Shown in pieces: positions 14,847 to 28,791 of a DNA stretch of 28,791 nucleotides. This DNA is from a virus, in IMG/VR virus record IMGVR_UViG_3300042524_000214, positions 102,663 to 131,453 of that record. One strand, given 5' to 3'. The translations under genes were made by a program, and so were the position numbers. Under the pieces are notes generated by a model. It was given only the letters and a program-made list of their open reading frames with translations. It was not told the DNA's origin and made no database searches. Numbering within the stretch: the first letter of the stretch is position 1; the number at the start of each line of letters is the position of its first letter.

Positions 14847-17066
14847 TTATTTTTTAAATCTACCTCCAAATTTTTTCTTTTCGGTCTTTTTTGTTTTAGC
14901 AGCCTCTTGTTCTTTTGAATAAAGTTCTTTTAAAAAGTTTGTTTCACCTTCATTAAAATTTGGTGTCTTATTTACTTCATAACCTTCTCCAGTAAACTGT
15001 ACATCTGGATTTAGTGCATTGTATCTATTAAACCCTTCTACTGTCTTCCAGTTATTCATCTGGTTTTCTTGAAGTCTATTATAAAAGTTATTTAAGTTTT
15101 GCTCATAAGCATTTTGTGCTGTATAAGTTCTTTTTTCGTAGTCTAAAGCATCTTGACCTGCTGCATTTTCTTCAGCATCGGATATTTTTGCATTGTATGT
15201 ATCAACTGCATTTCTACCTGCTGCATTAGACCTATTTACATCTGCAATTACTTTATTAGAATTCATATTGTAATTAGCTGTTACCCCTATAGAAGCTGCT
15301 GCTCTTTGTGCTGGGGTCATATCTTTTAGCTGGTCTTGTGTAGCATTTTCGGAACGATTCATCTCAGCTAATTGTTGTTCTGGAGATATATCATTGTACC
15401 CTATTCTACTGTATCTTCTTTGTAGTTTTAAACTAGGTTGTATAGAAGATGGCATTAATGGAGTTTGGTCAGGTAGTAACAACAAACCTCTTCTGTTTTT
15501 GTCTTTTACTATATCTTTTGTAGGTTCTTCTACAACATTGTTTTGTTTAAATTTAAAAGGGTTTTCCGCAAATCTAACAGTCCCTGTTGATGGTGTTTCC
15601 GGTGTTTCCCCTGGAGTAACCGGCTTATTCTCACCAGTAAGTTTTAAAAACTTATTTGTAGGGTTTTTTGCTGACTCATCTAAATCTTGTACTGTAACCC
15701 CATATTCATCTGCTATCATTTGCTTACCCCCTGGGGATTGCTTTCTATAAGCATCTAAATCTACATTACCTGATTTTTTAGCAGGTTTTGCTACTACAAA
15801 CCCAGGCTCTGAAGCTACTATGTTACCATAAGCATCTGTCTTTTGGTTTCTAAACGGTGCACCTTGGTACACTATCCCTTTTTCTTTTAAGGCAGGTATT
15901 ACTTCATTGTATATTAATTTAGTGTCCTCTGGGTTATTTGGATTAAAATCTCTACCTGTTTTTTGTTTGAATGTGGTATTATACAAATACCCATTTATTC
16001 TTGCTTCGTCTTGTCCTCCGTAAGAGCCATTAGGATTATCTTTGTGTTGTAACTGTATAGGCAGCACTTTTCCTGTACCTATTGTTTCTAACATACCTGG
16101 ATTAAATACTAACTCATTACTGTCAATTGCTTTGTTTAAATTGTCTAAACTCTTCTTATCTAATACAAATTTAGAATAGTGTTTTTTAATTGCTTCTTTT
16201 TCTTTATCCGTGTAAGTTCTAGCTTTACCTGTTACTTCCCCTAAAACACCTTTTTTAGCCTCTTTCTGGTAGTATTCTGCATCGGACATATTTTCGGGTC
16301 TCTCTGAACCTTTGTTAAGCCCTAACTGTTTTACTAAATCAGCAAATGGGTTTACAAATCCTGCATCTTGGTAATGTGGTAGGGTTTTTAAAAGTTCTTT
16401 AGCTCTTTCTGGGTCTATCTTATGTTTGGCGGCTAGTTCCAAGTAGTCTCCTCCCATTTGCATTTTATACCCAGATTGTTCTGTTTTAGCCTCCTCTTGT
16501 TTTTTAAATAGCATATCAAAAAATTTAGCTCTCTCTTTTTCAAGAGGTTCTTTTTCTTTACTTTTGCTGTTTACACTGTTGTTTAGGAATTGATTGTTTA
16601 AAGCAAAAGTTTCTTTATCTTTGCTCTTATCTTTCTGCTCATCCATAGATTTAATAAACTTTTCTAACTCTTCATTTACTTTAGTTAACCCCGAAGCATT
16701 AGTAAACCTATCTAAAGCTTTAGAGTAAGTGTCATTAGCTTTAAAAGGTAATTTTAATGATTTGTTTAATTCTTTAGCTAAGTCAACCCCAATTTTTAAA
16801 TGGTTACTTATAATTCTAGAGCCCTCTTCAAGTTTAACTGGCATACCTCCCTTTTCGTGGGATTTACCTTCAAACTTTCTTATGCCTTTAGAGTCAAGTA
16901 TGTATTCTCCACCTTCTACCTCTGCGTTAGGTTTTGCTATGGGTTTATCCATATCCAGTGCAAACTGGTACTCACCAGTCATAGCTTTATGCAAATCCTT
17001 TTTCTCGCCACCGTTTGCAAAGAAGATATTTTCAAAAACTTCTTTTGGTATTTCTATTTTATTCAT
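14847..17066 (-). CDS. Virion-associated protein, 739 aa, with EVEGGE/SHEKGG domain
   Basis: The ATG at 17066 overlaps the stop of the preceding gene (TATGAATAA), so translation is coupled. Residues 13-95 hold GGEKKD (19-24), EVEGGE (49-54), SHEKGG (69-74) and then a VKLEEGSRIIS strand. The EVEGGE...SHE.GG pattern is one I recall in large structural proteins of many Bacteroidetes phages. MQMGGDYLEL (near 200) and the C-terminal FGGRFKK belong to the Gly-Gly motif style shared with the 711-aa protein and the lysin. A Lys/Glu-rich linker (about 140-195) separates the N-terminal domain from the middle, and the C-terminal 150 residues are Asn/Gln-rich and probably helical (AQNAYEQNLNNFYNRLQENQ). 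The enzymatic role, if any, is unknown. It is most likely a structural or internal protein. Confidence 0.7.
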   Translation of the reverse strand: MNKIEIPKEVFENIFFANGGEKKDLHKAMTGEYQFALDMDKPIAKPNAEVEGGEYILDSKGIRKFEGKSHEKGGMPVKLEEGSRIISNHLKIGVDLAKELNKSLKLPFKANDTYSKALDRFTNASGLTKVNEELEKFIKSMDEQKDKSKDKETFALNNQFLNNSVNSKSKEKEPLEKERAKFFDMLFKKQEEAKTEQSGYKMQMGGDYLELAAKHKIDPERAKELLKTLPHYQDAGFVNPFADLVKQLGLNKGSERPENMSDAEYYQKEAKKGVLGEVTGKARTYTDKEKEAIKKHYSKFVLDKKSLDNLNKAIDSNELVFNPGMLETIGTGKVLPIQLQHKDNPNGSYGGQDEARINGYLYNTTFKQKTGRDFNPNNPEDTKLIYNEVIPALKEKGIVYQGAPFRNQKTDAYGNIVASEPGFVVAKPAKKSGNVDLDAYRKQSPGGKQMIADEYGVTVQDLDESAKNPTNKFLKLTGENKPVTPGETPETPSTGTVRFAENPFKFKQNNVVEEPTKDIVKDKNRRGLLLLPDQTPLMPSSIQPSLKLQRRYSRIGYNDISPEQQLAEMNRSENATQDQLKDMTPAQRAAASIGVTANYNMNSNKVIADVNRSNAAGRNAVDTYNAKISDAEENAAGQDALDYEKRTYTAQNAYEQNLNNFYNRLQENQMNNWKTVEGFNRYNALNPDVQFTGEGYEVNKTPNFNEGETNFLKELYSKEQEAAKTKKTEKKKFGGRFKK

Positions 17067-19194
17067 AGCTTACTTCGTATTTTCCGGTTGTACTATTAAA
17101 AGTATAATCTTTTATTGTTTTTCCTTTCAAAGAATTTAAGTATTCTCCTCCTTTTCTCATCTGTGGAGTACCTTGCTCTGGGGATTCCATTCCTGTTTCT
17201 CCCCCTTGTATTTCTTGTAGTATTTCTTGTATCATTTGCATAGCTTGCTCTTGAGGTATACCCATTTGAACTAATTGTTCTAATACTTGTTTAGGGTCTG
17301 CCCCTTGTTTAAGAGCTTGTTCAACTTGTGATTCAATTTGCTCCATACTTGGTGTTTCTCCTTCGGTTCCTTCATTTTCCCCCTCTGCTTTCTCATCCAT
17401 TGCTTCCCCACCTTCTTGGTAATATTTACCCCCTCTTTTCATTTGTGGGCTAGCTTGTGGTGCTTGTTGACCTCCTTGCATTTGTTGCATAGCTGCTTGC
17501 ACTATTTGTTGAGCTTGTTCTTGTGGAACACCTGCTTCAATGAGTTGTTGTAGTATTTGTTGAGGGTCGGCACCTTGCTGTAGCATTTGTGAAACTTGCT
17601 GCATGATAGCTTGCATTTGTTCGTTTTGTTGTGGTTCAGCTGCTTGTTCCTCACCACCTTCTTGATACATATAACCGCCTCTTTTCATTTGTGGGGTACC
17701 TTGTTCCATCTGCTCTTCTTGTGGGTTTGGCTGTCCACCTTCGGCACCTTCTTCCTGAGAACTTTGTCCTTGTTGTTGTATTTGCTGCATAACAGCTTGT
17801 ACAAGTTGAACTGCTTGTTCTTGTGGCATACCTGATTTTAACAACATCTGCATAACTTGTTGCGGTTGAGCTCCTTGTTGTAATGCTTGAGAGACTTGTT
17901 CTGCCATTTGTTGCTCTCCACCGTCTTGGTAGTACATCGTACCACCTCTTTTCATTTGTGGAGTGGCACCTTGAGATTGCTGCATCACTGTTTGTACCAT
18001 TTGAACTGCTTGTTCTTGTGGTATCCCCATTTGGACTAATTGTTGGATTACTTGTTGTGGGTCAGCTCCTTGTTGTAACATTTGTGCTACTTCTTGCATT
18101 ATTTGCTGTTCTTGACCTCCTCCTTGTTGTTCCATACCTTCTTCTTGTGAATTTGATGTTTGTCCTTCTAATCCTTCTTCCATTCCTGGTTGCATTCCTC
18201 CTTCTTGGTAATAGCCTCCAAATCTTGCCATTTGCTCTCTTCCTTGACCAGTCATACCTTCTCTTTGTTTTTCTGCGTATTGTTTTTTAACGTAATTTTC
18301 TCTTCTAGCTTGCCCCATACCTCCTAGTATATTTCTAGCTGTTCCTAAAGCAACTTTAGCTCCAGATGCAACTGCACCTAGGGTGTCTTTGTTTTCTAGA
18401 GATTGACCAAACATAACACTAGCAGATGGTATATCTACTCCTGAGTAAGGGTTGAAAAATTGAAATGGTTGTCCTTCTTTAATATCTGGTTTTTGTAATC
18501 CGGTTGTTTCTGTTTTTGCTTTTGCATCTTCTACTTCTGCACCAAACACATTGCTAGACATAGGTTTTTCTATACCTTGTGGTAAAGGATTTTTTGCAGC
18601 CCAATCTTTTCCTGCTGTTAGAGATTCTGGAGATAATGGACTTGGTTTATTTGGGTCTACTCCTAATCCATTTTCATTTGGATTTATTGCTGTTATTTTA
18701 TTTAAACTGGCTGAAAATTCTTCCGGAGAAGCTATGTTTGTGTTTTCGCCAAATTTAGGCTTAGGGAACGTACTACCTGGGAAATTCCCTGCAAACTGGT
18801 AGCTAGGTAGTTGATAACCACCCTCTCCATGAATATTATCATACATTTCGTATGCTACAGCAACTGCTTGTTTTTGGGGATAGCCCTCACGTACAAGTTT
18901 TGAAATTTTAGCACTTATCCAGTCATTCTTTTCACCACCGTGACCAAACATAGGGGTTTCCGCCACATAAGAAGCTCCACCAAATCTATACTCTTCTCCC
19001 GGTTGCATAACCACGCTATTACCAATTGGATTACCATTTTGGTCTAGAGGGGTTGCTTGCAATGGGTAAGGGGTATTAGCCATAGTTATATTCTCACTTG
19101 GTATAAAATTAACAGGGTTTTTCTCTGAGCTATACCCTGGAGTATAACCTGTTCTATTTACTAGGTTAGACTTTTTTTTGTACTTTCTTTCCAT
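17059..19194 (-). CDS. Gln-rich repeat virion protein, 711 aa
   Basis: The start at 19194 has an A-rich leader. N-terminal features: NITM...P (35-43), VMQPGEEYRFGG (62-73), GHGGEKNDW (84-92) and a helical motif LVREGYPQKQAV (100-111). Residues 130-320 are low complexity and Pro/Asn/Gly-rich. Residues 330-690 hold four copies of a Gln-rich module: a helix, QGA(D/Q)P(Q/K)QV, a second helix with G.PQEQA (near 392, 457, 556 and 645), and then PQM(K/R)(R/K)GG with, in three copies, YYQ.GG. The last 20 residues are a separate strand-like tail. The composition suggests a flexible, multivalent structural or assembly protein. It couples to the next gene through overlapping stop and start codons. No clear promoter was seen between it and the plus-strand VanZ-like gene, so transcription may read through from the lysin gene. 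Confidence 0.72.
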   Translation of the reverse strand: MERKYKKKSNLVNRTGYTPGYSSEKNPVNFIPSENITMANTPYPLQATPLDQNGNPIGNSVVMQPGEEYRFGGASYVAETPMFGHGGEKNDWISAKISKLVREGYPQKQAVAVAYEMYDNIHGEGGYQLPSYQFAGNFPGSTFPKPKFGENTNIASPEEFSASLNKITAINPNENGLGVDPNKPSPLSPESLTAGKDWAAKNPLPQGIEKPMSSNVFGAEVEDAKAKTETTGLQKPDIKEGQPFQFFNPYSGVDIPSASVMFGQSLENKDTLGAVASGAKVALGTARNILGGMGQARRENYVKKQYAEKQREGMTGQGREQMARFGGYYQEGGMQPGMEEGLEGQTSNSQEEGMEQQGGGQEQQIMQEVAQMLQQGADPQQVIQQLVQMGIPQEQAVQMVQTVMQQSQGATPQMKRGGTMYYQDGGEQQMAEQVSQALQQGAQPQQVMQMLLKSGMPQEQAVQLVQAVMQQIQQQGQSSQEEGAEGGQPNPQEEQMEQGTPQMKRGGYMYQEGGEEQAAEPQQNEQMQAIMQQVSQMLQQGADPQQILQQLIEAGVPQEQAQQIVQAAMQQMQGGQQAPQASPQMKRGGKYYQEGGEAMDEKAEGENEGTEGETPSMEQIESQVEQALKQGADPKQVLEQLVQMGIPQEQAMQMIQEILQEIQGGETGMESPEQGTPQMRKGGEYLNSLKGKTIKDYTFNSTTGKYEVSYE
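17145..18105 (-). repeat. Four tandem Gln-rich helical modules within the 711-aa protein
   Basis: Each module is about 65-100 codons: two Gln-rich helices joined by QGADPQQV and ending in G.PQEQAV, a variable linker, then PQMKRGG. The PQMKRGG-like segments lie near 17150, 17435, 17680 and 17947. The helix cores are well conserved while the linkers differ in length and composition, so these are old, diverged duplications and not a recent DNA-level tandem repeat. Confidence 0.85.
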
Positions 19195-19252: not shown

Positions 19253-19618
19253 ATGAAAACTTTATTACTAGGAATTTTTAGTTTTATTTTTTACAACGGG
19301 TTTTTTACATTCTCAAAAAGTAATACTATTATTTTATCTATATTTACAGATAAGCAATTACATTTTGCTGTATTCTTTTTATACCCTTTGGTTTTTTTAT
19401 ATTTTCTTCCTAAAAATAAGATTATTACTATAATAACTCTTTTATTTTTTGGTACTATGACTTTTGGTATAGAAGTATTACAAAGAAAATATTTCCATAG
19501 AACTTATTCTATGCTAGATTTTAAATACTCCTTTTGTGGGTTTTTGTCCTCTTGCCTTGTATTACTAATCCTAAATACTATATCTTATTTTGGCTCTTTA
19601 AAGAAGTTCTCCATTTAG
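19253..19618 (+). CDS. VanZ-like small membrane protein, 121 aa
   Basis: The only plus-strand gene. A hydrophobic N-terminus (1-20) is followed by TDKQLHF (32-38), a membrane segment (39-52), another (56-72), and GIEVLQRKYFHRTYSMLDF (72-90) leading into a last membrane segment (92-112). DK.LHF, then E..Q, R, S..D and G at VanZ-like spacing are the family's hallmark; the usual Asn four residues after the Asp is Ser here. VanZ-family proteins are membrane proteins linked to glycopeptide resistance in bacteria, and their biochemical role is unclear. In a phage next to a lysin it could alter the envelope or help lysis, which is inference. It overlaps the lysin gene's 3' end by 41 bases and is antisense to the flow of the surrounding genes. 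An A/T-rich start without Shine-Dalgarno and a candidate -7 box support the frame. Confidence 0.75.
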   Translation: MKTLLLGIFSFIFYNGFFTFSKSNTIILSIFTDKQLHFAVFFLYPLVFLYFLPKNKIITIITLLFFGTMTFGIEVLQRKYFHRTYSMLDFKYSFCGFLSSCLVLLILNTISYFGSLKKFSI

Positions 19619-22343
19619 CAACATTCTTTTGTAATAGTAAACTATCAGAAGTTGTTTTGTAAGATTTTTTATTATCCCCTACATCAAACATATTTGAGTA
19701 ATTCAAAACTTTATTAGTATAATCTACATCATAGTCTTTAGCCCAGTCTTCTATTTTCTTACCATTTACCACACGACCCATCGTACTATTATAAGTTGTT
19801 ATAGCTCTATACATAGCATCTTTTTTACTAAATCCTTTATCTAGAAATTTTTTATAGTCTTTAGATAATTTATACATAGTAGTCAATGATGCTTTATTTT
19901 CATCAGAAAAATTATCTTTTGTGATACCTAATTCTGTTACATCATCATTTCCAAAGTTAGATTCATATTTTAATTGTCCTGCTCCTTGGGATGCTTCGTC
20001 TTTTTTAAGCCCTACAGCATGTGCAGATTTAGCTACTGTTTGTTTTATACCGGTAGTGTATTTAGCACTTGTACCAAAACCTGTCTCTTGACCTAGTATG
20101 CCCAAGGATGCCTTAGCTAATGAGTTGTACTCATCGTCACCAAGGTTAAATACTTTTGAAAGTACTTTTTTATTCTTGTTATCATTCAAAGGTTTTATAA
20201 AAGAGTTCTCTAATTTACTTTTTGCAGAAGCTGATGTAAAAAAGTTATCATAATCCCCAGTGGATAAAGTGGCTGCTTTTTTAGGGTTTAGTTTTATAGC
20301 TAAGTCTTCTCTAACTATTTTCTTTTCCCCATTCTCTACAGAACCATAATTTGGTCTAAATATATGCTTTACTGTGTATGGGCTACTATGCCCTTGTATT
20401 TCACTTGCTTTAACTAAATCTCTATACTCTCTACCTTCAAAACCATCTTCTTTATTCCCTTTGTGCAGATTATGTAGTATGTAGTAACTTCCATCTGGGT
20501 TTACTTTATCTACTATACCTACGTGGGTTGTTCCGGTTCCTGCTGCATCGGCTTCTTTTTGGAAAGGGCTAATACCATGTGTGTAAACTGTGATTACATC
20601 TCCAGCTTGTACTTGTTTAGGTTTTACCTCTTGCCCACCTTTGCTTATTATATTTTTACCTATACTCCAAGCATCCCCTGTTATACCAGTCTTGGCATTC
20701 CATTCATCTCTCGATACATTAGGTTGCACGTTTCTAAATAGCTCATTTTGGCTATATTCTGAACACTGTGACTCTGTGCACTTGCCTAATAAACCTTTAC
20801 CCTCTTTTATGCTAGAGTATCCATTATTAGATAAGTTTTGGTTATACTGTTGTATTGCTTTTAATGTTACTTTACCTGCTTTACCATCTATACCTGAATT
20901 CTCAAACTTACCTTCTGGATTTAGATTATATCCTTTTTCTACTAAGAAAGACTGTAGTTTTTTTACTTGGTCTTGGCTTTTAAAATCAGATAGTTTTAAA
21001 TCTATATCTTTATTTTCTATAGAATCCTCTAAAGTAGCTTTGCTTGAAAGTTCCTTATTTATTTCAGATAAATTCAATCTATCTTTTTTATCTTCTATTT
21101 CTTTTAATATCTCTTTTTTAGTACCGTATTTTAATTCCTGTTTTTTTTCTAGTACTTGCTCTTGTATATTTCCAGTACCTTCCCTAACTCCGGTAAATTG
21201 TCTTCTGGGTAAATCCTTGAATACTACCTTTTCGCCTGGTTTAGAGCCATATTTAGATATTAACTCGTCTACTTTGCTAGTTGGTTCTGCTTTTTTTGTA
21301 GTTGGTTTTGCAGTCGGTTTCTGAGTTGTTCTTTGAGGTGTTCCAAAACCCTGAGATAACTGTTCTTGAAAAGTTTTAGGAGCCGCCCCGAAAGGGTTTT
21401 CTTCATCCTCTGCATAAGTTTCTGCAAAATCTCCACCTTCAGCAAATCTTTTTAGTTCTTTGTTGAACACCTCGTAATCAATACCCCCTTGTGTACCCCC
21501 TTGTGTACCACCATTTTCAAAATAGCTTGGTGCTTGTTGAGCTTGATATTCTGGAAGTTCTGGCATATATAATTCATAGCCTGATTGATTAGCTTGAGGA
21601 GCTTGTTGCTCTTCTTGTCTTGCTTGTAGTTCTTGGATAAAGTTTTGCTCTTGTTGAGATTTTTTTAGTTCTTCTTTTGCGGAGTCTCCTTCAATATCTT
21701 CTTGGCTTTTATCCGTTTCATAATAATCTTGTGCTGTTACGTAATCCCCAGAATTCTCTGTTAAGTTAAGAGTTGAATCTAAATAGTAGTCTTTTGGTTC
21801 AGACTTATCTGCATAATAGCTATCTCTAGACTCTGTGCTAGAAGGGTAATTATTGTTTTCCGGATTAGACTTATTTGAGCTAATTCCTATTTTTCCTAAA
21901 ATACTTTTTATTTTTACATCGTACTTATCATCTGTGGCATAACCTTCTCCGCTACCGGTTCTTGGGTTATACTTCCAAATTTTTCCTAATGCTTCGTCTA
22001 CGGTGCTTGCATTTTTGTATTTGCTACCCCATTTTTTTATTCTATCATCTACTGCTTCTTCTAGGGTATCATAATCTCTAAATTTGGCATTAGTTCTGTA
22101 AGACCTATTATTTGATACCTCTAATGTAGACTTATTGCTACCTTTTTGGGAGGCTGATGCTTTTTGCCCAAAATAGTTGTACTTACCGGCAGGGCTCTTA
22201 AACCAACCAGTTTCTAAAATTGCTTGGGCTAAGGTTAGCTCTGGGTGTCTATCTCCTCTATTTTTTGCTGTATCGTAGAGTTGTGTAGCTTTGCTCCACT
22301 GCTCATTACTTACATCTTTTGGTTTTATTAAAACATCTGCCAT
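19578..22343 (-). CDS. Multi-domain virion-type peptidoglycan hydrolase, 921 aa
   Basis: Domains in order. (1) Residues 15-155, glucosaminidase of the FlgJ/endo-beta-N-acetylglucosaminidase type: AILETGW with catalytic Glu44, YNYFGQKA, FRDYDTLEEA and GYATDDKYDVKI. (2) A Gln/Glu-rich linker (200-275) and a Gly-Gly stretch (RFAEGGDF, near 305). (3) Near 455-510, a peptidoglycan-binding-like segment (VKKLQSFLVEKGYN...GIDGKAGKVTLKAIQQYN). (4) Residues 515-660, CHAP/NlpC-like papain-fold hydrolase: ESQCSEYSQNE (probable catalytic Cys), AGDVITVYTHG, THVGIVD (near 606) and a following HN. (5) Residues 740-895, lytic-transglycosylase-like: GILGQETGFG (Glu near 750), SQGAGQLKYES and TTYNSTMGR (near 852). 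It would cut both glycan and peptide bonds. The lack of a signal peptide, large size and position after the tail genes favour a virion-associated entry lysin over a cytoplasmic endolysin. It ends in TAG. Confidence 0.85.
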   Translation of the reverse strand: MADVLIKPKDVSNEQWSKATQLYDTAKNRGDRHPELTLAQAILETGWFKSPAGKYNYFGQKASASQKGSNKSTLEVSNNRSYRTNAKFRDYDTLEEAVDDRIKKWGSKYKNASTVDEALGKIWKYNPRTGSGEGYATDDKYDVKIKSILGKIGISSNKSNPENNNYPSSTESRDSYYADKSEPKDYYLDSTLNLTENSGDYVTAQDYYETDKSQEDIEGDSAKEELKKSQQEQNFIQELQARQEEQQAPQANQSGYELYMPELPEYQAQQAPSYFENGGTQGGTQGGIDYEVFNKELKRFAEGGDFAETYAEDEENPFGAAPKTFQEQLSQGFGTPQRTTQKPTAKPTTKKAEPTSKVDELISKYGSKPGEKVVFKDLPRRQFTGVREGTGNIQEQVLEKKQELKYGTKKEILKEIEDKKDRLNLSEINKELSSKATLEDSIENKDIDLKLSDFKSQDQVKKLQSFLVEKGYNLNPEGKFENSGIDGKAGKVTLKAIQQYNQNLSNNGYSSIKEGKGLLGKCTESQCSEYSQNELFRNVQPNVSRDEWNAKTGITGDAWSIGKNIISKGGQEVKPKQVQAGDVITVYTHGISPFQKEADAAGTGTTHVGIVDKVNPDGSYYILHNLHKGNKEDGFEGREYRDLVKASEIQGHSSPYTVKHIFRPNYGSVENGEKKIVREDLAIKLNPKKAATLSTGDYDNFFTSASAKSKLENSFIKPLNDNKNKKVLSKVFNLGDDEYNSLAKASLGILGQETGFGTSAKYTTGIKQTVAKSAHAVGLKKDEASQGAGQLKYESNFGNDDVTELGITKDNFSDENKASLTTMYKLSKDYKKFLDKGFSKKDAMYRAITTYNSTMGRVVNGKKIEDWAKDYDVDYTNKVLNYSNMFDVGDNKKSYKTTSDSLLLQKNVAKWRTSLKSQNKI

Positions 22344-22423: not shown

Positions 22424-23359
22424 TTATGTGTTTTGGGATTCGTTTAGCACAAATTTAAGTGCTAAGCTAAATCTACTATCTTTATCATAAGAAAGCCTAT
22501 TTAAGAACCAATCTCCTTCCATTTTTCTAAGTGGGTTAATACCTTGGAATTTAATTACCGCTGGGTTAGGTTGTTTATCTATCTGATTCTTGTCTTGGAG
22601 TAAAGCTGGTATGTTTGTTGTATTGTACTTTACTCTGTTAAAAATATAATCATAAGAAAACTGAAAATTATCTTTATTAGTAATCAAAATATTTTGTGTA
22701 TTATTCGGATTTGTTTTTGGATAATTTTTTACAGTGGCTAGGTTAGGCTCTTGTATATCTAATAGTAGTTGCCCTGAACAACCTACGTTATTGTAAATCA
22801 AAGACTTGTTAAACGTTAGTGAAGGTGTTACAGCAAAATCATAATCATTGCTATATCTTTTTGCTTCTGTCCATAATTTTACACCTTTTAACCTTTTTGT
22901 CATATACTCAGATTTTATAGGGTACTCAACAGTGAAAATCTGTTTTTTACCATAAAATACTTGGTAGGACTTGTTTGTTAGTAAGTGTGACCATAAACCT
23001 AATTCTTGGCTATCTAAAGCATTATTTCTTCCTGTTTGGAAGTAACTGTTATGATTAATATAATAGTTAGGGTAGAAGCCATAAAAGCTTAACCAAGAGC
23101 CTGTGTTTAATGAAAAAGCTATCGTCCAAGATACCTCTTCAAAATATCTAACATCTGTTAAACTAGCAGGGGTTAATATGTCAACTACTGTTGGTGGTAT
23201 AGAATCTTCACAACTACAGTAAGCATTACCATTTTCTAATCTAATTAGCGTACAGCCTTCTGGGCAAAGCACGTTTGTAATAGTACCAGAACAGGAGCAG
23301 TATACTACTCCTAATTCTGTGTACTGTGTACAATTTGTTTGTGGGCAAGTGCAATTCAT
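22424..23359 (-). CDS. Cys-rich tail/virion protein, 311 aa
   Basis: The start was set at MNCTCPQ (23359). A start 45 bases further up would run into the preceding gene, and this ATG has an AAAAATAAAAAT leader ten bases after that gene's stop. Residues 1-60 are Cys-rich (CTCPQTNC, VLCPEGC, YCSCEDSIPP), related to modules in the 736-aa protein and the right-edge protein. The rest is beta-rich with aromatic motifs: VSWTIAFS, GSWLSFYGFYPNYY, YQVFYGKKQIFTVEYP. From memory, the SWTI.S...W.SFY...PNYY...YQ.FYG pattern forms the C-terminal part of large crAss-like tail/muzzle proteins, so this may be the detached C-terminal half of such a protein. It has no signal peptide or membrane segment. Confidence 0.68.
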   Translation of the reverse strand: MNCTCPQTNCTQYTELGVVYCSCSGTITNVLCPEGCTLIRLENGNAYCSCEDSIPPTVVDILTPASLTDVRYFEEVSWTIAFSLNTGSWLSFYGFYPNYYINHNSYFQTGRNNALDSQELGLWSHLLTNKSYQVFYGKKQIFTVEYPIKSEYMTKRLKGVKLWTEAKRYSNDYDFAVTPSLTFNKSLIYNNVGCSGQLLLDIQEPNLATVKNYPKTNPNNTQNILITNKDNFQFSYDYIFNRVKYNTTNIPALLQDKNQIDKQPNPAVIKFQGINPLRKMEGDWFLNRLSYDKDSRFSLALKFVLNESQNT

Positions 23360-23369
23360 ATTTTTATTT

Positions 23370-25580
23370 TTATAATACTGTAATATCAAATGTTGGTGGT
23401 ACAAGCCATAGTTGTGAATAGGTTGGTTCAGGTATTGCTAAATCTAATTCAAAAGTAGATACGCCAGTTGTAATAGGTGTCCCTAAGGCTTGCATAGTTA
23501 TTGTTTGAGAACCTAGTGTTGTAAAAGTACCTTTCGCTCTAAATGTTACTCCATTAGCATATCCTATAAAATCGTATGTTCCTAAGAATGTAACATTTAC
23601 TGTAATATTTTGTGTTACTGTGCTTGGTGTTATTGCAACACCTGCTGTTAAAGTTCCTGTTTGTGTGCCTATTGAAATACTATCTATTTTACTATTACCC
23701 CCAGTTGAACTTTCGTAAGTGGTTAAAACTTGCCCAGGTACAAAAGTACAAGGGTTTATTTCTAATACTTTAGAACCTATAACTCCATCATAAACGCTAA
23801 CTCCATTTATAAAGAACTGTAACCCTACTACATCACTGTGCTGGTTATAGTATTTTCCAATAAGGGTGACTCCTACAGTTGGTGTGGGGTTTGTTACTAC
23901 GTTTGTGCCTCTTAGTCTTATTTTTAGTGTGTTTGCGGTAGCTGATAAGCCCTCTTCTATAATACCTGATTTAATTACTGAATACTCTACAAAACTCTCT
24001 CTAGAACTTGTATCACCTGCTAATGGGGAAGTAGTAAATCTCCCGTATACTATTTTATTAAATTCGTCTGGTGTACTTGAATTATTTAAGCTGACATAAG
24101 TTGCAGGGGTTTCCACATTTGATGGGGATGGTAAAATGCTTGCTGATGGTAAATAATGGAAGCAATCTATTGGTACACCATTTGTCATAAAATTATATCT
24201 AGCCCTATTACAATTATGCCCAAACGTAGAACTAATAGGAGACCAAAAAGCTGTGTAATTTGCTTCTGTACTTGTTCCAGTAACATACGTTGTCCCATTC
24301 CAAGTATAAAAAAGGTTTGTATCAGATGCAACATAAACCTGACCTAATAATCCAGGAGTAGGGAATAATGCGTAGTTAAGATAATTATTTCCGCCTAATC
24401 TTTGAATCCCTGGAGTGGGTGAAAATACGCTACAGGATAAATTTACTGTAGTGTTTGAAAAAGTAACTACTGGTGCTGTTGCACTATACTTTAAAATACT
24501 TATATTATTTGCAGAGCCACCGAGTGTAATACCTAAAGCAAGTAATGTTGTATTGTGGGTATTTCTAAAATCAGTAGCTGTTTGTGTAGTACTTGAGTTA
24601 AATGATATAGCATAGGGTGTACCATCTATAATAATGTTACCTGAACCACTTGTACCAGATACACTAATACTTATACTTGTATATGGTAGAGTAAACTCTC
24701 TCAAATTGTCATAAAATACCCTAGCTGTAAGCACTGCTAAACATTCTTCTATTGTAGCTCCTATATTTATTGTGTAAACTAAAGTGTTTGTACATCCATT
24801 TGGGGCTGTTGCTACTATGGTGTAAACTACTGCGGCAGCATTAGGGCATGTTAGTGTGTCTGTTATTACACTGCCTGTTCCAGATGTTGCTCCAGTAACA
24901 CCTGCATCTGCTACAACAGTCCATGCAAAAGTTGTTCCTGGAACTCCACTACTAAGAGCTACGTTCAATGAATCACCGCTTGTAATTGTTTGTGGGCTAT
25001 TTGGCACTGCTATTATATTTGGTTTTGGGTTAACTGTAACTGTAACTTGTATAGGTGTTCCTGAACATCCTGACAAACCTTGTTCATAAGGTGTTATTGT
25101 GTATATTGCAGTCCCTGGTGTTGCACCTGTCGCAACTAAAGCTTGAGATATAGTATTACCTGATGCAATAGAGTTACCTGAAGTACCTCCATTAACACCC
25201 GTTTGTAAAACTACCCATGAATACACGACCCCACTAGGTAGTGTGGATGTAAGGGGTACAGATGTATTATCACCACTACAAATCGTTTGTGGGGATGCTA
25301 TTACATCAGCTAAACAGAGACAATCTGCTGGTATATCATTACTTGCTTCGCAATAAGAATCCTCTGGATTTTGTGCGACATACACGTATAAATAACCATC
25401 TGGACATAAATTTCCTGTGTTATACGCTAGAATACATTCTGTTTCATCTTCACTTAAAGTGTAGCCTGGTGGACAAGACTTTGGTTTACAAGATGGGGGT
25501 ACTGTAGTTGTTGTTTCACAGTATTTTACTCCTTGTATATCTACCAGTATGGCATTTTCGTTTTCACAATAGCAACTCAT
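23370..25580 (-). CDS. Cys-rich adhesin-like virion protein with PKD/Ig-like domains, 736 aa
   Basis: The start at 25580 follows the nucleotidyltransferase stop by ten bases, with an A-rich leader. Residues 1-90 are Cys-rich with repeated CP.GY modules (CPPGYTLSEDETEC, LCPDGYLY) and the linkers YCETTTTVPP and YCEASNDIPA. Residues 93-185 and 186-275 are two PKD-like Ig domains (SPQTICSGD..., VYSWVV, then SPQTITSGD..., TFAWTVV), as in Bacteroidetes surface proteins. Residues 276-390 form a beta module (IIIDGTPYAISF). A following segment contains GLLGQVYVASDTNLFYTWNG, a style common in phage tail proteins. The C-terminal 300 residues are Thr/Val/Gly-rich beta. A receptor- or glycan-binding tail fibre or decoration role is the likeliest reading. 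The host range specificity cannot be read from the sequence. Confidence 0.68.
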   Translation of the reverse strand: MSCYCENENAILVDIQGVKYCETTTTVPPSCKPKSCPPGYTLSEDETECILAYNTGNLCPDGYLYVYVAQNPEDSYCEASNDIPADCLCLADVIASPQTICSGDNTSVPLTSTLPSGVVYSWVVLQTGVNGGTSGNSIASGNTISQALVATGATPGTAIYTITPYEQGLSGCSGTPIQVTVTVNPKPNIIAVPNSPQTITSGDSLNVALSSGVPGTTFAWTVVADAGVTGATSGTGSVITDTLTCPNAAAVVYTIVATAPNGCTNTLVYTINIGATIEECLAVLTARVFYDNLREFTLPYTSISISVSGTSGSGNIIIDGTPYAISFNSSTTQTATDFRNTHNTTLLALGITLGGSANNISILKYSATAPVVTFSNTTVNLSCSVFSPTPGIQRLGGNNYLNYALFPTPGLLGQVYVASDTNLFYTWNGTTYVTGTSTEANYTAFWSPISSTFGHNCNRARYNFMTNGVPIDCFHYLPSASILPSPSNVETPATYVSLNNSSTPDEFNKIVYGRFTTSPLAGDTSSRESFVEYSVIKSGIIEEGLSATANTLKIRLRGTNVVTNPTPTVGVTLIGKYYNQHSDVVGLQFFINGVSVYDGVIGSKVLEINPCTFVPGQVLTTYESSTGGNSKIDSISIGTQTGTLTAGVAITPSTVTQNITVNVTFLGTYDFIGYANGVTFRAKGTFTTLGSQTITMQALGTPITTGVSTFELDLAIPEPTYSQLWLVPPTFDITVL

Positions 25581-25590
25581 ATTTTTGGTT

Positions 25591-25947
25591 TTATTTTATT
25601 AATACAGCTTCTTTTCCGAAACCATCTACCCTCAGCATAAATTTAAAATCTACTTTTACCGGGAATTTTATTTTATTGATTTCTAAAACTTGTTTTTGTG
25701 TTATATTTTTTTGTATGATAATATCATAATCACTTGAATCTATCCAATACCCTTTTACTCTTGACCCAAATAAATACATCTGACACTCTCCTATAGTAGT
25801 TTCTAGTAAGTCCTTTATAATGTGTAATACTTTTTTACAATCCTCTGGTAATTCTTTCCACTCTGTTATTAAAGGATGAACTGCCAGTCTTTTTACTGGC
25901 AGCTTAAATCCTAATGGGTTCCCTATGTATGGGTATTGTTTTCTCAT
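25591..25947 (-). CDS. Small nucleotidyltransferase-fold protein (MNT-like), 118 aa
   Basis: The start was set at MRKQYPY (25947), five bases after the upstream stop; in-frame ATGs at 25965 and 25983 would overlap that gene. Residues 58-77 read YLFGSRVKGYWIDSSDYDII: a GS(x10)DxD signature of DNA-polymerase-beta-like nucleotidyltransferases, with metal ligands Asp73 and Asp75. VKVDFKF near the C-terminus supplies the likely third carboxylate (Asp100). This matches minimal MNT domains, which transfer nucleotides to proteins, RNA or small molecules and often pair with a HEPN partner. No HEPN protein is visible. Its place between two tail genes, with gaps of 5 and 10 bases, suggests co-expression with virion proteins. 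A modifier of a virion component or an injected protein are both possible. All key acidic residues are present, so it is probably active. Confidence 0.75.
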   Translation of the reverse strand: MRKQYPYIGNPLGFKLPVKRLAVHPLITEWKELPEDCKKVLHIIKDLLETTIGECQMYLFGSRVKGYWIDSSDYDIIIQKNITQKQVLEINKIKFPVKVDFKFMLRVDGFGKEAVLIK

Positions 25948-25952
25948 ATTAT

Positions 25953-28791
25953 TTAATTCCACCATGTCCCTTTTGGTATACAACTATAAGCACCAAATCC
26001 AGTTGTTGGTTGTACATTTGGTAAAAAAGGACTTTCAATACTCATACCTAAATTTTTTGTCCACCAAAATATTACTGGAAAAGCTTCCCCAGATATTTGT
26101 CTGCTTATACTTATAGTAAAGGTAGAGCCTGAATATGGGCAATCTATCGTAGATAAATCGTCATGGAACACAAAACCACTTCCTGCTACACCTATTATGC
26201 TGTTTAACCAGTTGTTTATGTTTTGTACGTATGTTGTAACTCCATTAAGACCTACCCCAACCACTAAACCTGATGGTGCGTTTATTGTTAAAGTTTGCCC
26301 GGAAGCATACTCAGTGCCATCTAATTTTAGCTTATTTAGTGTAAAAGTGTATGTCGCACTAGCCCAATTTTTTTCAATACTTGAGTACTCTTGGTAACAT
26401 CTACTTGGAGATATTGTTGGACATATCGCTAAAACTCTATCTAATCTTTCACATAACCCTGTTTTTGAATTGTATGTAAAATCAGGAGGGCAATTAGTGG
26501 TTGTCTCTTCATTACAACATTTTGTCTCATTGTAAAAGTAACCTTGACCTGGGATATAATCTATACAAGGGTCTGGTATGTAATCTTTCTTAGTTATAAA
26601 AACTCTTCTATATCTACTGTCCCAACCCATTGTAATACCAACACCGTTGTACGGGTTGTCTACATCCACATTAGGTAAGTACTTTAGTATTTTGAATGGG
26701 AGCTGTTCTTTAAACCAGTTCCTCATTCCACTAGCTTTACTGCCGGCAGCTGTAGATATTTCTACAATACCTGAACTGTTAGGTGCCACCATTAAGACTT
26801 GACCTCTTTTTGCATCTGCCCAAAAATGACCAGCTTCACAAGATACTTGAGCAAAGTTTTGAGTTCCACCATATCCTAACTTAGCATTCACAAATGATGT
26901 AGATGCTCTTTGGAAGAACATATTACCTCCTAGGGTAGTTGCTGTTATAGCAGCCCCCGTGTCTATTTTAGTATCTACCTTATTGTACAGTACAGAAGTA
27001 TCCGAAAATCTAGCAAGTATTGCTCCACTTTCAACATCAATTACATCTTTTAATTTACCGTAGTTTGAAGGAAATTCAAATGTATCTAATGGTCTATAAA
27101 TCAACCATGGGTCATAAGAAGAGGTTTCAGAATTATCTGGTAAACTTGCTATGATACCATTTGGCATATTTTGTATAACATCATACAATCTCTTTTTGTA
27201 GATTTCTGGTATCGTTCTAGTTCTAATTCTAGAAACTTGATTAGAATAAGCACTGTTATATCTAAAGATGTTTGGTTCTCTTATAGGTACGTTTGTCTCT
27301 TGTGTCCACTCCCCTAAATCACCTACTTGGGGATAAAACCCTTCTCTTTTTTCTTTACCTGCGTATCTGTATGCAGTGTTTATCCTTGTTTCTGTTAAGA
27401 AATTTGGAACCCCGTAATGGTATAAATAAAATTTAGACGGTGGGGTATAATAATTACCGCTTGATGAAGGGGTATCAAAATTAAAATCACTAGATATATC
27501 GGGTAATAATCTATTACCTTGTCCAAAATCTTTATTTTCTTCGTAACTAACATAAAAATGAGGTCTTCTACCTATATTATTGTAAAAATAATAATTGTAA
27601 GGTGTAAGGTCTGCTTGTTTCATAGCTGTTACTAAGAACTGAGACATCTTTCTTTTTAAGCTATGTCTAGTAATAAAAGTGTCTCCTCCAAAAATTGATA
27701 TACAACTTGTTTGTGGATTTCTTAAATTCCCTCTATAACCTGTGCTTAGCCACTTAACTGAGCTTATTGTACCATACTGTGTGGGTAAATAATTCTTTAG
27801 TGCTGCATACGGTGATGCGATATTTTTTATTATCTCTTGGCTTCTTCCGGTTGTAATTAAGTTATTTTCCCCCAGATAAGTCATACTTGAATCATTAGAC
27901 GATTTATCATAGTTTGTATAATCAACAGGGTACTCTACAGGAAATTTACCAAAAGATAAAAATACAGATTTCTCTCTATCAATGTTATTTACACTTAGTC
28001 TTTCTCCGGTAGTTTCATTTGTAACAATATATCTACCATCTCCTAGGTATTTACCTATATTCGCTGCTCTAAGTTTATTACCTTCATCCCCCCAAATTCC
28101 TTGTGGGTTTGGAGAAGAGTGGCTTATATAATTGTAAAACCCTTCTGAAAAATAGTAGTACGCAAAATTATGTGGTGTTCCTAAATCTCTAAATATTTTT
28201 AACCACTCATATCTGTATCTACCATACTGAAAGTATGCTCCACTAATACCACCTATTGCTGCAATAGCTATGGAAGCTACTAGCCCCCCAGGAAAAACTG
28301 TACTAGAAAAACCTACTACTATATTGGTATTTGATAAGGCTTGTAATGCTTCAATCAAGACATTAAAAATGGTCTCTGCTATTGCTAAATCATTTGCTAA
28401 TGTATATGCTCTCTCTGTTAAAATTACCCATTTTGGGTGTTGTTTTACTTGGTCAAAATTACCTCTTGAATTGCCATATTGGTATCCTTGAAAACTCACC
28501 TCAGAAGGAAGTCCAACTTTTGTATAGTCCGTTTCTGGAGAATGAAAAGTATAATGCCTATTAGATTCTCCAAATATGGCACCTTCTCCTAAATTCTCTC
28601 TATTTGTCTCAGTTGCATAAGGCTCATTGAACTTATCGGTTGAAAATGTATTGTAAGGATAATTGGAATACAATATGTCTTTGTCAACAGTTTCTGTTTC
28701 TCTATACTTACGCATATCATATAACAGTCCTGAGGCTACTACACTTCTATCTAAACTAATATCTCCTCTAAATAGTTCGTAACCAACTATT
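25953..28791 (-). CDS. Large tail/muzzle-like virion protein, N-terminus cut by window edge
   Basis: The frame is open to the right edge with no stop: 25 codons precede the first in-window ATG (28715), so the true start probably lies outside. 945 residues are visible. Counting from 28715: a segment with SPETDYTKVGLPSEV (near 60-75); a Gly/Ala-rich hydrophobic stretch (near 140-165); a long aromatic beta-rich region; TTLGGNMFFQRAST; GHFWADAKRGQVL (near 630); and DNPYNGVGITMGWDSRYRRV followed by TKKDYIP. A Cys-rich module (about 712-772) with CPPDFTYNSKTGLC is followed by a C-terminal beta module (LDGTEYASGQTLTIN). From memory the central motifs resemble distal tail (muzzle) proteins of crAss-like phages; that identity is tentative. 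The first gene of the tail block in this window, it is followed after five bases by the nucleotidyltransferase gene. Confidence 0.7.
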   Translation of the reverse strand, partial: IVGYELFRGDISLDRSVVASGLLYDMRKYRETETVDKDILYSNYPYNTFSTDKFNEPYATETNRENLGEGAIFGESNRHYTFHSPETDYTKVGLPSEVSFQGYQYGNSRGNFDQVKQHPKWVILTERAYTLANDLAIAETIFNVLIEALQALSNTNIVVGFSSTVFPGGLVASIAIAAIGGISGAYFQYGRYRYEWLKIFRDLGTPHNFAYYYFSEGFYNYISHSSPNPQGIWGDEGNKLRAANIGKYLGDGRYIVTNETTGERLSVNNIDREKSVFLSFGKFPVEYPVDYTNYDKSSNDSSMTYLGENNLITTGRSQEIIKNIASPYAALKNYLPTQYGTISSVKWLSTGYRGNLRNPQTSCISIFGGDTFITRHSLKRKMSQFLVTAMKQADLTPYNYYFYNNIGRRPHFYVSYEENKDFGQGNRLLPDISSDFNFDTPSSSGNYYTPPSKFYLYHYGVPNFLTETRINTAYRYAGKEKREGFYPQVGDLGEWTQETNVPIREPNIFRYNSAYSNQVSRIRTRTIPEIYKKRLYDVIQNMPNGIIASLPDNSETSSYDPWLIYRPLDTFEFPSNYGKLKDVIDVESGAILARFSDTSVLYNKVDTKIDTGAAITATTLGGNMFFQRASTSFVNAKLGYGGTQNFAQVSCEAGHFWADAKRGQVLMVAPNSSGIVEISTAAGSKASGMRNWFKEQLPFKILKYLPNVDVDNPYNGVGITMGWDSRYRRVFITKKDYIPDPCIDYIPGQGYFYNETKCCNEETTTNCPPDFTYNSKTGLCERLDRVLAICPTISPSRCYQEYSSIEKNWASATYTFTLNKLKLDGTEYASGQTLTINAPSGLVVGVGLNGVTTYVQNINNWLNSIIGVAGSGFVFHDDLSTIDCPYSGSTFTISISRQISGEAFPVIFWWTKNLGMSIESPFLPNVQPTTGFGAYSCIPKGTWWN

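Follow-up and report, generated by a model that had tools for sequence, protein, structure and literature searches.

A crAss-like phage muzzle protein encoded as two chains and cut repeatedly at one loop of its β-propeller

Introduction

The muzzle of crAss-like phages is known from gp44 of phiCrAss001 (7QOK, 7QOL), a single chain of 1371 aa composed of a ring-joining domain, a seven-bladed propeller, two Ig-like domains and a crass domain (PMC10172136). The reported insertions lie in the crass and IG2 domains (PMC10172136) and not in the loop that concerns us here (residues about 1197–1200), which in gp44 carries no insert. Another relative, gp042 of Cellulophaga phage phi4:1 (PHROG 37948), is also a single protein, of 2289 aa with a 310-aa Cys-free insert at this loop, and according to its record was found in virions by MS. 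Phage genes in pieces have been described for nrdA/mobE of phage Aeh1, the T4 topoisomerase (mobA) and the 43A/43B polymerase (PMC2988022), while gut phages encode modular Ig/BACON/PKD adhesins, some of which attach to epithelium once presented by a different phage (PMC13370021). In the open-access text we found no paper on a split muzzle.

Here we describe a muzzle gene that is divided at this loop in a stretch of 28,791 nucleotides (the window; positions 102,663 to 131,453 of the IMG/VR record IMGVR_UViG_3300042524_000214). The two chains, A and B, resemble gp44 in fold around the cut and in the C-terminal domain of B, so that a hexameric tail-tip gate is expected here, and share 47% (A) and 39% (B) identity with phi4:1 gp042 over the matched parts, but unlike both of these proteins they are encoded separately.

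A muzzle divided between two genes

The window is one end of a virus record of 131,453 bp, the last 143 bases of which repeat the first 143 with 1 mismatch; the genome is thus circular or terminally redundant, and A, which leaves the window at its right edge, runs on at the other end of the record. Identities to csAssE-Sib (MCP 38%, TerL 36–47%, ring proteins 33%) identify the phage, as judged from its proteins, as crAss-like. The minus strand presents the order A, a 118-aa putative nucleotidyltransferase, a 736-aa protein and B, with the following features:

25953..28790, minus strand: A, N-terminal chain of the split muzzle (PHROG 37948; 47% to phi4:1 gp042)
26571..27323, minus strand: final 250 conserved aa of A ahead of the cut, with TKKDYIP at their end; equivalent to the C-terminal propeller region in phiCrAss001 gp44 (same region modelled from the uncut relative L009, matching 7qok_A 1025–1370)
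26391..26570, minus strand: A-side Cys-rich module at the start of the C-terminal extension of A (7 Cys in 60 aa)
25956..26390, minus strand: remainder of the 205-aa C-terminal extension of A, a small extra domain
25591..25947, minus strand: 118-aa putative minimal nucleotidyltransferase (NTP_transf_2, 21.1 bits, cut-off 21)
23370..25580, minus strand: 736-aa putative adhesin with N-terminal Cys modules and PKD_5 Ig-like domains (PKD_5, E 1.9e-21)
23360..23372, minus strand: stop–restart junction before B, TAA-aaataaaaat-ATG
22424..23359, minus strand: B, C-terminal chain of the split muzzle, 311 aa
23180..23359, minus strand: B-side Cys-rich module, beginning MNCTC, with 9 Cys (by alignment; homologous stretch within the uncut L033)
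22943..23179, minus strand: strands of B completing the cut propeller blade, YFEEVSWTIAFS...NKSYQVFYG (bordering the cut in the L009 model)
22427..22954, minus strand: C-terminal domain of B, probably ring-joining (model residues 136–310 on 7qol_P 1250–1371)

The window shows the C-terminal 945 of the 2062 aa of the joined A, whose first 1117 aa lie at about G000:C1:142-3493. An earlier note on this DNA had taken A and B for consecutive parts of one crAss-like muzzle protein, separated here by two genes. The motifs it quoted are all found in the translations, GGNMFFQ, FWADAKRGQV, DNPYNG and TKKDYIP in A and SWTIAFS, WLSFYGFYPNYY and YQVFYGK in B (the listed ORF of B begins at TTG, while relatives favour the ATG at 23359), and the two intervening genes are there as described. 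Along the 2289 positions of PHROG 37948, A matches 1002–1749 (E 5e-218) and B 2051–2288 (E 3e-50), and these ordered, non-overlapping matches make them consecutive parts of one family. A and B occupy one reading frame in phi4:1, csAssE-Sib, Lbo-JY46, MT837925 and Fpv1 (in the last of these the A core is too distant for BLAST with the cut-adjacent region) as well as in L009, a close uncut relative with a B part that is 86% identical. Both halves therefore match the muzzle family, its members are not always separate proteins, and the gene is indeed split in this phage, as had been proposed. A scan of genome contigs for the muzzle returned only two relatives, both uncut, in MAGs labelled Methylophaga and Lacinutrix, labels that give a weak pointer to the host.

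Two further observations concern the neighbouring genes. B is followed by a gene (19578–22343, minus strand) for a probable tail lysin of 921 aa, in which a glucosaminidase domain and, more weakly, a CHAP-like domain were matched. A second fission lies at 14847–19194 (minus strand), where proteins of 711 and 739 aa, with ORFs overlapping by 8 nt, are consecutive parts of phrog_36695; this protein is one ORF in phi4:1, L013, L026, L032, L033 and L040 and two ORFs in the window, L009, L011/L029, L012, L014, L018, L019, L021–L024 and L030.

Position of the cut in a propeller hairpin

Searches of PDB sequences with phmmer for A and with a profile of B gave no true relative, so that structure models were needed. 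Similarity to gp44 in sequence is itself marginal. The junction was modelled from a 528-aa stretch of L009 that spans the cut position; the model is weak (pLDDT 52, pTM 0.36), with the phiCrAss001 muzzle (7QOK/7QOL) as its top match at a Foldseek E of 6.5e-8, the next match being at 0.04. Residues 48–525 of the model align on muzzle residues 1025–1370 (VIA Z 9.4–9.6), and the cut falls between the neighbouring strands 240–246 and 295–300, a position that in gp44 corresponds, weakly by sequence, to a tight turn near residue 1197. The break between A and B is in this way placed by the modelled fold in a hairpin loop of the muzzle β-propeller.

When B is folded alone its C-terminal domain (residues 140–310) is predicted with confidence, mostly at pLDDT 70–90, and superposes on 7qol_P 1250–1371 with Z 10.7 and an rmsd of 2.3 Å. 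Its first part, with the strands by the cut, is predicted poorly (pLDDT 39–53), as would be expected if A is needed for its folding. According to the models B probably comprises the last propeller strands, assigned by position, and the ring-joining domain, assigned by elimination. An N-terminal Cys module of its own might suggest that B has left the muzzle for another job and that A alone builds the tail tip; this is improbable, as B shares its core with uncut proteins and adopts the fold of the muzzle C-terminal domain, A alone would lack a propeller blade and the docking domain, and L009, which lies inside the split clade, has A and B fused.

Inserts, Cys-rich arms and passengers at the cut

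In uncut genes the loop either measures 12–28 aa and is devoid of Cys or bears an insert, the loop of L009 having 26 aa with 2 Cys. The inserts of uncut genes include a VWA domain in L012 and L013, homologous inserts in L030 and L032 and a PA14-like domain in L036, the rest being unassigned. Those of cut genes are Ig/PKD strings and BspA-type and LRR repeats: PKD_5/Ig strings in the window, L014, L018, L019, L021 and L022, PKD with leucine-rich repeats in the L026 group, DUF11 with DUF285 in L011, Fib_succ_major in L023 and Ig/LRR/BACON in L040. The two ends of a VWA domain are close together, those of long Ig strings and solenoids far apart, which suggests that the cut frees the slot for domains with distant ends; since the VWA inserts of uncut genes derive in part from a common ancestor, the cases that link domain type to cutting are not independent of one another.

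Inserts at most loci of the group are flanked by Cys-rich arms, and at the window locus Cys modules occur in the C-terminal extension of A and open both the 736-aa protein and B; their presence at the break points had already been noticed. The earlier note took them to hold the cut protein together. Both arms are nevertheless present in the uncut L030, L032, L033 and L089, and the protein of L033 runs straight from one arm into the other; as the arms flank inserts in uncut genes, they predate the cut and were not added on its account. The B-side arm has 9, 7 or 3 Cys, an odd number in every split locus with this arm, so that one Cys is left over to bond elsewhere, whereas the parity in the extension of A varies among loci and so by itself lends no support to an interchain bond. 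The tails of crAss001 use interchain disulfides (PMC10172136), and a disulfide linkage between A and B is suggested by these Cys counts.

Cassette exchange at the cut is documented by one pair of genomes, L021 and L022, whose DNA is 87% identical as far as 37 nt beyond the conserved core and 92.5% identical again from 10 nt ahead of the stop, with the intervening insert largely replaced. From this comparison the swapped unit is a cassette delimited by the A-side arm and the restart.

The two genes between A and B in the window differ in kind. The putative nucleotidyltransferase gene, which begins 5 nt past the TAA of A, contains GSRVKGYWIDSSDYD (the GS...DxD active-site motif) and scores below the cut-offs for MntA and ANT(9). 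With no relatives in phage records, viral contigs or the rest of the genome, and missing from the other surveyed muzzle loci, it is probably a passenger, and it looks like the only such gene among those that intervene in the window. In the 736-aa protein PKD_5 matches two stretches above cut-off (76 bits), and residues 22–731 are 47% identical to the C-terminal extension of the L014 muzzle (710 residues); its counterpart is thus fused into the chain of A in L014, and it is a separate gene in L021. A direct search of phage records and viral contigs gave no relatives of this protein, which were found only via the survey of B. On its sequence the 736-aa protein is the putative displayed adhesin of the cut loop. 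The proposal of inserted cargo can accordingly be retained for the nucleotidyltransferase but not for the Ig protein, which is not foreign to the muzzle.

Other passengers occupy the A–B site elsewhere. L026 (9319–10000), L027 and L031 have an HNH endonuclease (phrog_953, E 3e-63) between A and B, and the L026 group presents a decayed second copy of the start of B (MACNCLSEICVLTILLLYL*), its close relatives L028 and L047 being devoid of the endonuclease. L040 (7246–8334) carries a 363-aa protein with repeated DGINW-type motifs, with no match in Pfam or PHROG.

Breaks and inserts are seen at a further loop. A distant muzzle homologue in L015 (7391–14647) is interrupted at two loops, one following KLDYIP and the other being YFQTG...GLWSH, and the breaks carry threonine homopolymer tracts; B of L011 (12843–13907) has a second, Cys-rich insert in the YFQTG...GLWSH loop, which, being cut in L015, may be a second display site.

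The cut recurs among relatives

Viral contigs were scanned twice with B profiles, giving 34 and 43 loci, from which a tree of 37 rows was built with duplicates and one very divergent row left out. In 15 of the 37 the gene is cut at the loop and in 22 it is uncut. The tree requires at least 7 changes of state, 6 of them forced by strongly supported branches, and contains sister pairs of opposite state (L032 uncut and L079 cut; L033 uncut and L081 cut), with the uncut L009 nested in the split clade of the window itself. One origin for all splits is rejected (p-AU 7e-63), as is a split clade that excludes L009 (p-AU 3e-5). The idea of a single split caused by the arrival of cargo thus gives way to a cut that has come and gone at one loop, with at least 6–7 changes.

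L009 retains half of the A-side Cys module, followed directly by the core of B, which looks like re-fusion by deletion. Its placement differs between the two parts of the protein, the window grouping with L014 in the tree of A and with L009 in that of B; as the AU values are marginal (0.03 and 0.09), an acquisition of its state through exchange of B is only suggested by the trees.

An origin of the cut in mobile endonucleases, as for the genes in pieces of T4-like phages, would make the Cys modules and adhesins irrelevant to it. The precedent (PMC2988022) and the HNH endonuclease of L026, L027 and L031 speak for such an origin, but L028 and L047 are split with no endonuclease and with an intact start of B, so that the enzyme is most likely a later arrival, and there is none at most split loci or in the window. 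We consider this unlikely, though marginally less so than a B that has left the muzzle.

Probable separate translation of A and B

In the split relatives B is preceded by a stop codon, which is TAA with one exception, and then by a short spacer rich in A, of 10–26 nt in the first set of relatives and 9 nt in L079. Every B opens with an ATG of its own behind this A-rich leader, and its first residues follow a conserved MxCxC pattern. Relative to the upstream gene B occurs in all three frames, so recoding is not a general route to B, and dN/dS for B is 0.06–0.14 within several pairs of relatives, indicating purifying selection; together these make splicing, frameshifting and decay unlikely. L079 (6989–7001), L085 (3992–4014) and L086 have a single in-frame TAA between A and B, and readthrough in the L079 and L085 lineages would yield a fused A–B.

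Introns, inteins and recoded stops are abundant in crAss-like phages (PMC7886860), and a self-splicing intron, an intein, readthrough or frameshifting might bridge the cut so that a single protein is still made, for which the lone TAA of L079 and L085/L086 also speaks. Rfam searches nevertheless detected no intron, either in the window (E up to 1) or in five split relatives (gathering cut-off), a Pfam search of the 736-aa and 118-aa proteins gave no intein or intron-type domain, and two whole genes lie between A and B in the window; with the variable frame and the conserved start of B, this makes bridging very improbable. Still harder to credit is a gene that is broken and decaying, or an assembly that is wrong. 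The record is metagenomic, some relatives have an endonuclease at the site and the L026 start of B is decayed, but B is under strong purifying selection and the same layout is repeated across many separate assemblies.

Discussion

The reading that we favour, at a probability of roughly 0.78, is that of a two-chain muzzle in which A and B co-assemble and the cut loop serves as a C-terminal adhesin slot. The muzzle would be encoded as two separately translated chains, A being the N-terminal part with the Ig and crass domains and most of the gating β-propeller, and B the last propeller strands together with the domain at its C-terminus, probably the ring-joining one, by which the muzzle docks on the tail barrel. 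The two would fold into one muzzle subunit, six A and six B making up the hexamer, and the conservation of both chains is most simply accounted for if they do so. In uncut relatives the hairpin loop of the propeller blade either is empty or presents an additional domain, frequently raised on a stalk rich in Cys. In cut genes a stop here, with translation restarting immediately ahead of the stalk's return arm, would make the adhesin either a C-terminal extension of A or, as in the window, a separate chain. The adhesin would then be freed from having to end in frame and from the need for close ends, an advantage of the cut that we infer, and could be swapped as a cassette. The 736-aa PKD protein would be the current adhesin, displayed, by homology to the known muzzle, at the tail tip, and the nucleotidyltransferase a later passenger.

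A bolder form of this proposal, in which the stop–restart in the Cys stalk, cutting a propeller blade of the gate, is an evolved exchange slot where any adhesin can dock as a free chain end with no limits of frame or end spacing and be swapped by recombination at the stalk arms, and in which A and B are linked by a disulfide through the unpaired Cys found in every B module examined, is tentative, and we hold it to be somewhat doubtful as a whole.

Compared with known genes in pieces, the split muzzle likewise divides a conserved phage protein between two chains, whose genes are in some cases separated by a further one; uncut homologues exist and both parts are maintained. However, those are enzymes mostly cut by endonucleases, whereas here a structural protein of the virion is cut at a loop for adhesin display, repeatedly and usually with no endonuclease. 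As for the Ig/BACON/PKD adhesins of gut phages (PMC13370021), PKD and Ig-like domains are encoded near phage structural genes, but here the adhesin lies in or beside the muzzle gene itself. The new elements are the recurrence of the cut, its location in a hairpin of the propeller that serves as adhesin slot, and Cys arms that arose before it.

For annotation, the finding is a warning that a muzzle may appear as two or three proteins, easily listed as unrelated hypothetical genes. Split phage genes have been known mostly for enzymes invaded by endonucleases, and here it is a core protein of the virion, the tail-tip gate, whose gene has switched repeatedly between cut and uncut; should the two chains co-assemble, a conserved gate would be kept while the domains that touch the cell are exchanged.
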